DNA of 64,000 nucleotides from Pyrococcus horikoshii OT3 (GTDB lineage Archaea; Methanobacteriota_B; Thermococci; Thermococcales; Thermococcaceae): the NCBI RefSeq assembly GCF_000011105.1, contig NC_000961.1:792662-856661 (forward strand), written 5' to 3'. Position 1 is the stretch's first letter. Each line of letters opens with the position of its first letter. The notes beneath the pieces were generated by a model. The model was not told the DNA's origin, made no database searches, and saw only the letters and a list, made by a program, of their open reading frames with translations. The position numbers and the translations under genes were made by a program. Shown here piece by piece: positions 9,241 through 44,040 of this stretch.

Positions 9241-11562
9241 ATGAAAGCATATAGAATTCACGTCCAGGGAATAGTTCAAGCCGTCGGATTTAGGCCCTTC
9301 GTGTACAGAATAGCTCACGCTCATAACTTAAAAGGATTCGTAAGGAACCTGGGAGATGCGGGAGTTGAGATAGTTATAGAGGGGAATGAAGAGGATATAG
9401 AGGGTTTTCTCGTAGATTTATATAAGAAGAAGCCTCCCATTGCTAGAATTGATAAAGTTGAGAAGGAAGAGATTCCTCCCCAGGGATTTGACAGGTTCTA
9501 CATAGAGAAAAGTTCAACGGAAAAGAAGGGAGAGGGTGATTCAATTATTCCCCCAGATATAGCAATTTGTGATGATTGCCTTAAAGAGCTATTTGATCCA
9601 ACAAACAAGCGTTACATGTATCCCTTTATCGTCTGTACGAACTGTGGGCCAAGGTTCACGATAATTGAAGATCTTCCCTACGATAGGGAGAATACCGCAA
9701 TGAGAGAGTTCCCAATGTGCGAGTTCTGTAGGAGTGAGTATGAGGATCCATTGAACAGGAGGTACCATGCTGAACCAGTTGCCTGTCCTACATGTGGGCC
9801 GAGTTATAGGCTATACACCAACGATGGAAACGAGATAGTTGGGGATCCCCTGAGAAAAGCGGCAAAGCTGATAGATAAGGGATACATAGTAGCAATAAAA
9901 GGTATAGGTGGAATTCACTTAGCTTGCGATGCTACAAGGGAAGATGTTGTGGTTGAGCTTAGGAAGAGGATATTTAGGCCCCAAAAGCCCTTCGCTATTA
10001 TGGCTAAGGATTTAGAGACCATAAGAACATTTGCCTACGTTTCTCCTGAGGAAGAAGAGGAGTTGACAAGCTATAGAAGACCAATAGTGGCTTTGAAGAA
10101 GAAGGAGCCCTTCCCGCTTCCTGAAAATCTTGCCCCTGGGCTTCACACAATAGGGGTAATGCTACCCTATGCAGGAACCCACTACATCCTATTCCACTGG
10201 AGCGAGACTCCAGTTTACGTCATGACCTCTGCAAACTTTCCGGGGATGCCGATGATAAAGGATAACGAGGAAGCCTTTGAGAAGCTTAGGGATGTTGCCG
10301 ATTACCTCTTACTCCACAATAGGAGAATTCCAAATAGAGCTGACGATAGCGTCGTTCGCTTTGTAGATGGTAGGAGAGCTGTAATCAGGAGAAGCAGAGG
10401 GTTCGTTCCCCTAGGAATAGAAATACCTTTCGAATATAAGGGATTAGCGGTTGGGGCCGGGCTCATGAATGCCTTTGGCGTTTCAAAGAGTGGAAAAGTT
10501 TATCCAAGTCAATACATAGGAGATACATCGAAGATAGAAGTTTTAGAATTTATGAGGGATGCAATAAGGCACTTCTTTAAGATTCTGAGGATTGATAGCT
10601 TAGATTTGGTTGTAGCAGATTTGCATCCAAGTTACAACACAACAAAGCTGGGAATGGAGATTGCTGAGGAATTTGGGGCGGAGTTTTTACAAGTTCAGCA
10701 TCACTATGCTCACGTAGCCTCTGTAATGGCCGAGCACAACTTAGAGGAGGTAGTTGGAATAGCCTTGGATGGAGTTGGCTACGGAACCGACGGGAAAACT
10801 TGGGGTGGGGAAGTAATATACCTAGGCTATGAGGATGTTGAGAGGTTAGCCCATATAGAATACTATCCACTCCCAGGAGGGGATTTAGCGAGTTACTATC
10901 CCTTAAGAGCTTTAATTGGGATATTGAGCTTAAACCACGATTTTGAAGAAGTTGAGAAAATAATAAGGGAGTTCTGTCCAAACGCAATAAAGAGCCTAAA
11001 GTATGGAGAGACCGAGTTCAAGGTAATTCTGAGGCAACTCAGCAGTGGAATCAACGTTGCTTATGCTTCTTCAACTGGTAGGGTGCTTGATGCTTTCTCA
11101 GTGCTCTTAAACGTTTCCTACAGGAGGCACTACGAGGGGGAACCAGCAATGAAGCTTGAAAGCTTTGCATATCAAGGGAAGAACGATCTAAATCTTACTG
11201 TTCCCATTGAGGGAGAGGAAATAAAGGTTTCAGAGCTGTTCGAGGAAGTCCTTGAGCTAATGGGGAAGGTAAATCCTAGGGATATAGCTTATTCCGTTCA
11301 TTTAGCCTTGGCTAGAGCATTTGCAGAGGTTAGCGTTGAGAAGGCTAAGGAATTTGGAGTCAAAACTGTAGTGTTAGGAGGGGGAGTAGGGTACAATGAG
11401 CTGATAGTTAAGACGATAAGGAAGATAGTCGAGGGAAGGGAGCTTAGGTTCTTAACTACCTACGAAGTTCCCAGGGGGGATAATGGAATCAACGTGGGAC
11501 AAGCTTTCCTGGGAGGGTTGTACTTGGAGGGATACTTAAACAGGGAAGATTTGAGTATTTAA
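9241..11562 (+). CDS. hypF: [NiFe]-hydrogenase maturation carbamoyltransferase HypF
   Basis: This is a full-length 773-residue HypF. It has an N-terminal acylphosphatase domain (residues 1-90, VQGIVQAVGFRPFVYR) and two zinc fingers with C110-C113/C132-C135 and C160-C163/C182-C185. A YrdC-like domain follows (about 200-380, including KGIGGIHLACDA and RPQKPFAIMAKD), then a C-terminal Kae1-like domain beginning around the HHYAH motif. HypF uses carbamoyl phosphate and ATP to make the thiocarbamate on HypE that becomes the cyanide ligands of the NiFe centre. It stands alone here; no other hyp genes or hydrogenase subunits are in the window. It serves the cell's hydrogenases in trans. Confidence 0.96.
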   Translation: MKAYRIHVQGIVQAVGFRPFVYRIAHAHNLKGFVRNLGDAGVEIVIEGNEEDIEGFLVDLYKKKPPIARIDKVEKEEIPPQGFDRFYIEKSSTEKKGEGDSIIPPDIAICDDCLKELFDPTNKRYMYPFIVCTNCGPRFTIIEDLPYDRENTAMREFPMCEFCRSEYEDPLNRRYHAEPVACPTCGPSYRLYTNDGNEIVGDPLRKAAKLIDKGYIVAIKGIGGIHLACDATREDVVVELRKRIFRPQKPFAIMAKDLETIRTFAYVSPEEEEELTSYRRPIVALKKKEPFPLPENLAPGLHTIGVMLPYAGTHYILFHWSETPVYVMTSANFPGMPMIKDNEEAFEKLRDVADYLLLHNRRIPNRADDSVVRFVDGRRAVIRRSRGFVPLGIEIPFEYKGLAVGAGLMNAFGVSKSGKVYPSQYIGDTSKIEVLEFMRDAIRHFFKILRIDSLDLVVADLHPSYNTTKLGMEIAEEFGAEFLQVQHHYAHVASVMAEHNLEEVVGIALDGVGYGTDGKTWGGEVIYLGYEDVERLAHIEYYPLPGGDLASYYPLRALIGILSLNHDFEEVEKIIREFCPNAIKSLKYGETEFKVILRQLSSGINVAYASSTGRVLDAFSVLLNVSYRRHYEGEPAMKLESFAYQGKNDLNLTVPIEGEEIKVSELFEEVLELMGKVNPRDIAYSVHLALARAFAEVSVEKAKEFGVKTVVLGGGVGYNELIVKTIRKIVEGRELRFLTTYEVPRGDNGINVGQAFLGGLYLEGYLNREDLSI

Positions 11563-43688: not shown

Positions 43689-43758
43689 GTCCCTATCCGT
43701 TTAACTAGCCTCCTATAATATAAAAATTTAAATTCTCGTATGAAAAAATTACCCTCTG

Positions 43759-43962
43759 GTGAGAATTAATGGCAATGGGGGGGCAAACGATAATTCCTTA
43801 AATAATGTAGTTGGCATAATAAAACTCTTGTCTGGGGAAGTCTTGATAGGAAGAATAAAGAGCATAAATGATGATTTTATTCTCGTGGAAACCCAGGAGA
43901 AGAAAATATTCATAGTAAACAAGAAAGCAATCTCTTATATTGAAGTTACGAAATTTAAATAA
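43759..43962 (+). CDS. Hfq/Sm-like small protein, apparent start out of frame
   Basis: The frame codes for LLSGEVLIGRIKSINDDFIL followed by VETQEKKIFIVNKKAISYIE, which follows the Sm1 and Sm2 pattern of Hfq-like proteins (compare the bacterial KHAIS Sm2 motif with KKAIS here). In-frame translation must begin at a GTG inside the likely RBS. The best start signal, GGTGA then six bases then ATG at 43769, is one frame off. That ATG leads into a run of seven G residues and stops after ten codons; one more G in the run would join it to the Sm frame. So the gene is frameshifted, mis-sequenced, or switched by the G tract. An RNA chaperone role is inferred from the fold only. Confidence 0.7.
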   Translation: MRINGNGGANDNSLNNVVGIIKLLSGEVLIGRIKSINDDFILVETQEKKIFIVNKKAISYIEVTKFK

Positions 43963-44040
43963 TGGTGCGGTGGCCGGGATTTGAACCCGGGTCGCCGGCT
44001 TGGGAGGCCGGCGTCCTAGACCAGGCTAGACTACCACCGC
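43963..44040 (-). tRNA. tRNA-Gly (anticodon CCC), CCA encoded
   Basis: The minus strand folds as a complete tRNA. It has a GCGGTGG/CCACCGC acceptor stem, the anticodon stem CCGGC/GCCGG with the loop CTCCCAA (anticodon CCC), a T-arm with GGTTCAAAT, and the 3' CCA encoded at 43963-43965. Discriminator A follows the acceptor stem. It begins directly after the stop codon of the Hfq-like gene, tail to tail. Confidence 0.93.

Follow-up and report, generated by a model that had tools for sequence, protein, structure and literature searches.

A conserved G-tract at the out-of-frame start of an Hfq-like gene in Pyrococcus: a candidate slippage-controlled locus

A run of seven G separates a well-formed translation start from the gene that it appears to serve in Pyrococcus horikoshii OT3. 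The window, by which we mean the whole 64,000-nucleotide stretch of DNA analysed here, belongs to a genome of 1,738,505 bases on a single contig. It contains an Hfq/Sm-like open reading frame whose ribosome-binding site and ATG lie one base out of frame with it. The initial annotation left three readings side by side, namely a sequencing error, a fixed frameshift and a switch. We asked which of these best accounts for the locus, and our comparison of related genes came out in favor of a switch: the tract is found in every copy with an intact 5' end, its length differs, and every such copy is out of frame.

An Hfq-like frame one base away from its start

All features of the gene lie on the forward strand. 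The Shine-Dalgarno (SD) sequence GGTGA (43758-43762) is followed by the six-base spacer GAATTA and then ATG, so that positions 43758-43801 read GGTGA-GAATTA-ATG GCA ATG GGG GGG CAA ACG ATA ATT CCT TAA. The first three codons are ATG (43769-43771), GCA (43772-43774), and ATG (43775-43777), and the ten-codon frame MAMGGQTIIP (43769-43801) ends at the stop at 43799-43801. This start and its early stop had been reported in the initial annotation, with coordinates that proved exact to the base. The duplex of the region before ATG with the anti-SD AUCACCUCCU has a computed energy of -7.4 kcal/mol, compared with -0.3 for the GTG that lies in the Hfq-like frame. A TATA-box-like sequence, TTTAAATT (43727-43734), is placed such that transcription would probably begin near the SD (~43757) and leave a very short leader. 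In the alignment, an AT-rich box stands at a similar distance in other copies of the gene.

The open stretch of the Hfq-like frame spans 43744-43962 and crosses the seven-G run (43777-43783, an exact count in the sequence and the proposed slippage site) one base off the frame of the ATG. As had been claimed, joining the two takes one added G at the run, the in-frame lengths being 8 or 11. A mechanical ORF caller instead assigned a GTG start and 67 amino acids (43759-43962). The earlier statement that translation without an added G must use a GTG inside the ribosome-binding site was borne out, since GTG 43759, which lies within the SD, is the sole ATG, GTG, or TTG of this frame upstream of the domain. 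The stop codon abuts a tRNA-Gly (CCC) gene on the reverse strand (43963-44040), which is an integration target in the related genome G001.

The Hfq/Sm assignment was backed by Pfam and by the predicted fold. The core domain (43807-43959) has five strands, an Sm2-like NKKAIS, and signs of purifying selection. Five other copies matched Pfam Hfq_1 at 29.6-31.7 bits, above the cut-off of 27, while the window copy scored 24 bits (E 4.1e-5), below it; matches to the NCBIfam Hfq models also fell below cut-off. An AlphaFold model built from a five-sequence alignment placed five strands within residues 13-59 with a core pLDDT of about 90, and the glycine-rich N-terminus was modelled with low confidence. 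When this fold was searched against the PDB, all of the best 50 matches listed were Hfq, the top ones being bacterial and from Methanocaldococcus jannaschii; a profile sequence search of the PDB returned nothing at 0.01. The archaeal Lsm profile (PF01423) did not match the gene, and its sole match in the genome was G000:C1:1353990-1354184. As NKKAI replaces the canonical Sm2 motif YKHA, absent here, in all five copies, we describe the protein as Hfq-like rather than as canonical Hfq. The product is best explained as a short stand-alone Hfq-like protein with a glycine-rich N-terminus that presumably binds RNA.

A tract in every complete copy, of differing length

To place the window gene among its relatives, we searched the proteins of 61 genomes. 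Close relatives were found within Pyrococcus only: one in G001, two in G003, one in G007, and a truncated one in G008. Of these five copies, spread over four genomes, four retain the 5' end and together with the window make five complete copies. All five share an SD, then (A/G/T)TG GCA A(T/C)G, then the G-tract, with SD duplexes of -7.1 to -8.8 kcal/mol for the equivalent start in the other copies. Tract lengths are 7 in the window, 9 in G001, 10 and 10 in G003, and 10 in G007, and none of the five SD-preceded starts is in frame with the Hfq-like ORF. The lengths that would restore the frame are again 8 or 11 in both G003 copies, 7 or 10 in G001, and 9 or 12 in G007. Thus four of the five are one G short (+1 G, equivalent to a -1 ribosomal shift), and G007 has one G too many.

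Two expectations about orthologs had been raised. That they might read eight G failed, the lengths being 9, 10, 10, and 10. Nor did they combine seven G with a conserved GTG start, one of two findings named as decisive against a frame problem: a run of seven G is confined to the window copy, and the GTG inside the SD sits in the Hfq frame in the window's genome only. A conserved GTG start was therefore rejected, this codon being missing or out of frame in the other copies. A second allele of tract length was not found in genome, viral, or plasmid searches, with one genome available per species. Viral contigs held no close relative and phage records none; 18 viral stretches carrying the motif gave translations unrelated to the Hfq-like protein, and the sole relative in GTDB contigs was a truncated copy in a metagenome-assembled genome. 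A motif match in a Thermococcus genome (G086) was rejected because it sits within an unrelated in-frame gene.

The tract itself is exceptional. Pattern searches across nine Pyrococcus genomes yielded six tracts of at least nine G, four of which belong to the Hfq-like gene. A first-order Markov model predicts about 117 in these 16 Mb, so long G-tracts are otherwise strongly avoided. Given this rarity and its recurrence in all five complete copies, the SD-start-tract arrangement is beyond chance. Between copies, pS is 0.60-1.04, near saturation, and dN is 0.09-0.29; the Hfq-like ORF is under strong purifying selection. GGG makes up 23% of glycine codons in the window, and the glycine codons of the tract all end in G despite their expected freedom to vary at the third position. 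With synonymous sites near saturation and dN low, drift does not explain why a run of GGG codons was kept in five copies.

The copies occupy a few sites. Those of the window and G001 (a genome of 1,765,118 bases) share a position flanked by the mannosyl-3-phosphoglycerate synthase gene and tRNA-Gly. An element is inserted at the G001 tRNA-Gly and carries a second copy of the tRNA end, 46 bases long and 97.8% identical (L034, reverse strand 9564-9609, and about 13400). A second location is common to the G003 copy at 378 kb and those of G007 and G008, the first two lying within a few kb of tRNA-Glu. The G003 copy at 478 kb has element-like genes as neighbors, with a tRNA-Ala some 8 kb away. The Hfq-like gene thus accompanies tRNA-targeted elements and may have originated from one.

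G-tracts were also seen at other gene starts in Thermococcales. Tracts of at least nine G lie 2-6 bases upstream of an ATG that opens a protein with a hydrophobic N-terminus in 8 of 28 cases examined, whereas positions drawn at random from these loci gave 3.2%; the eight are not fully independent, as three are members or near members of a single gene family. These SD-position tracts are in L025, L067, L070, L072, L085, L087, L094, and L096, at about 1501 in each. The proteins behind them are secreted or membrane proteins. A Thermococcus secreted-protein family of ~375 amino acids (L067, L076, and L096) has the common upstream sequence AACCCCGTT and 10, 9, and 9 G directly before the start. From their sequences, the eight loci look like G-tract SD contingency loci. 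The pattern is a lead that fits a lineage using G-tracts as contingency sites; it is no test of the Hfq-like gene.

Slippage, recoding, or direct translation

We consider the gene to be slippage-controlled and most likely phase-variable by replication slippage, a reading to which we assign a probability of about 0.5. In this model, the SD would recruit ribosomes to the conserved (A/G/T)TG GCA start, and the G-tract a few codons further on would determine the reading frame. At the deposited tract lengths, translation would yield a short peptide and terminate (OFF). Gain or loss of one G would join the start to the Hfq-domain frame, presumably giving the full protein (ON). Slipped-strand replication would alter tract length within populations, and slipped tracts would stay unrepaired in a lineage that appears to lack MutS and whose NucS-type repair is presumably inactive on small indels. 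The window's genome encodes NucS and gave no match to the MutS_I domain, for which 11 of 14 control genomes were positive. NucS of M. smegmatis leaves indels of 1-2 bases unrepaired (PMC11551767), a property of the Mycobacterium enzyme that we carry over to Pyrococcus by analogy.

As in phase-variable genes with homopolymeric tracts, a long homopolymer near the start sets the frame, and its position is conserved while its length varies among relatives (7, 9, 10, 10, and 10 G). This variation, a shift whose sign is not fixed, the lack of a stimulatory RNA structure, and NucS without MutS_I together favor genetic phase variation. Several observations pull the other way. All five copies are out of frame, an outcome that random phases would give with a chance of (2/3)^5 = 0.13, which is not significant, and four of the five require the identical correction (+1 G). 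The seven G of the window are also short for frequent replication slippage. The uniform out-of-frame state leans toward a mechanism that needs no in-frame DNA state.

Such a mechanism would be stutter of the polymerase on the G-tract or a -1 slip of the ribosome on GGG GGG, either of which would yield a fraction of product with the Hfq domain, tract length then fixing a low, constant expression. We judge recoding at the RNA or ribosome level less likely than phase variation, yet it is the main and a serious rival, since not one of the five sequences is in frame while their domain is under purifying selection. The shift needed is the same in four copies, and a G-tract is slippery for polymerase and ribosome alike. 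Among archaeal cellular genes, one is moreover established as recoded by a -1 frameshift, that of the Sulfolobus alpha-fucosidase, although its site is a run of A rather than G (PMC8211752). Programmed -1 sites are marked by a conserved direction of shift and a stimulatory structure downstream. Here, four copies call for -1 and G007 for +1, which is unexpected for a fixed ribosomal site but compatible with polymerase stutter. In the three copies folded, the downstream RNA was no more structured than shuffled sequences (z 0.81, -0.28, and -0.09), so a classical ribosomal frameshift site is not favored; a downstream pseudoknot or stem was rejected for want of any signal over shuffles.

The Hfq frame might instead be translated directly, from GTG 43759 in the window, perhaps nearly leaderless, and from a GTG or TTG after the tract elsewhere. 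The tract would then be a leader or SD element that switches nothing. GTG 43759 is indeed in frame and close to the predicted 5' end of the mRNA, a GTG directly behind the tract in the G003 378 kb copy and in G007 pairs with the anti-SD at -9.6 and -9.7 kcal/mol, and long G-tracts do occupy the SD position in other Thermococcales genes. Against this, the window GTG lacks an SD (-0.3 kcal/mol), and G001 would have to start either ahead of the promoter-like box, at 81-87 bases upstream of the tract, or at a TTG 12 bases after the tract. The G003 478 kb copy has no ATG, GTG, or TTG in the domain frame at all, and in no copy does the conserved, SD-preceded start share that frame. Reinitiation behind the short ORF was rejected, the overlapping GTGA being confined to the G003 378 kb copy. 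We hold direct translation to be improbable; as it fails generally, and the G003 478 kb copy offers no usable start in the domain frame, a frame switch at the tract remains. Little credence is likewise due to the view that the true sequences are in frame and were misread or misassembled at the homopolymer, or that the genes are dead and decayed. Homopolymer miscalls may affect individual genomes: four of the five tracts lack exactly one G, as common under-calls would have it, and the fragmented G008 assembly has a break no more than about 40 bases from the tract. However, four genomes would have to carry independent errors, one of them in the opposite direction, and neither the tract nor its rarity would be explained. 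Decay is at odds with a protein under selection. A tract in all intact 5' ends, with differing lengths and a start always out of frame, disfavors a single error or private frameshift, and an error peculiar to the window's genome was rejected because the arrangement is common to five copies. Even with in-frame true lengths, a conserved long G-tract just after the start would make this a slippage locus.

Returning to replication slippage, a more specific proposal is that it switches an Hfq-like RNA chaperone as part of a Thermococcales contingency-locus system enabled by indel-blind NucS-type repair, in a lineage where the SD of surface-protein genes likewise contains long G-tracts. This we advance tentatively, at somewhat under even odds. 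If true, such a G-tract switch, conserved in free-living hyperthermophiles and acting on an RNA chaperone, would carry homopolymer-tract switching over to archaea and to post-transcriptional control and tie it to the absence of MutS. A shift in the RNA or on the ribosome would instead make the locus a rare case of recoding in an archaeal gene. We found no archaeal example of an on/off switch by homopolymeric slippage in the literature searched, and no report of this Hfq-like tract locus in the open-access literature. In a survey with 18 archaeal genomes among those covered, tracts of more than 7 bases were generally not over-represented (PMC2831843).

Relation to known systems

The protein resembles M. 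jannaschii Hfq (PDB 2QTX and 4X9C) in its predicted fold, with a TM-score of 0.70-0.78 at 35% identity, and differs in that the Pyrococcus model lacks the N-terminal helix. Hfq-like proteins are also known from the thermococcal and methanococcal plasmids pP12-1, pCIR10, pIRI48, and pMETVU01 (PMC3543421). These have in common with it an Hfq-type domain, 51% identical across 47 residues in the case of pMETVU01, and an association with archaeal mobile elements. Most plasmid proteins carry an N-terminal Zn finger (pMETVU01, pCIR10, and pP12-1, but not pIRI48) and are encoded behind a helicase gene, whereas the Pyrococcus gene is stand-alone and chromosomal, near tRNA integration sites. No plasmid relative has a G-tract after its start, pCIR10 having six G in its SD, and the tract is thus a feature of the Pyrococcus lineage. 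Two further proteins were noted in Thermococcaceae. A chromosomal Zn-finger and Hfq-like protein of another genus (L008:1492-1956, reverse strand) resembles the plasmid proteins and lies near PIN-type toxin-like genes, and a membrane protein ending in an Sm/Hfq-like domain (L007:862-1722) is encoded next to a gene that resembles those for type I restriction specificity.

The closest archaeal parallel to the frame problem is the -1 frameshift of Sulfolobus fucA1 (PMC8211752), where the two parts of a gene are likewise one base out of register at a homopolymer. In fucA1, a run of A with a stem-loop and rare codons lies between two long ORFs, whereas the Pyrococcus G-run occupies codons 3-5 with no structure. 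In its architecture, the locus is most like the phase-variable poly-G genes (contingency loci) of Campylobacter and Helicobacter, with which it shares a G-tract just inside the gene start and a variable length and probably also frame switching and weak indel repair. The bacterial loci govern surface structures or a DNA methylase; here, the host is a hyperthermophilic archaeon, the product a predicted cytoplasmic RNA-binding protein, and tract lengths are compared between species.
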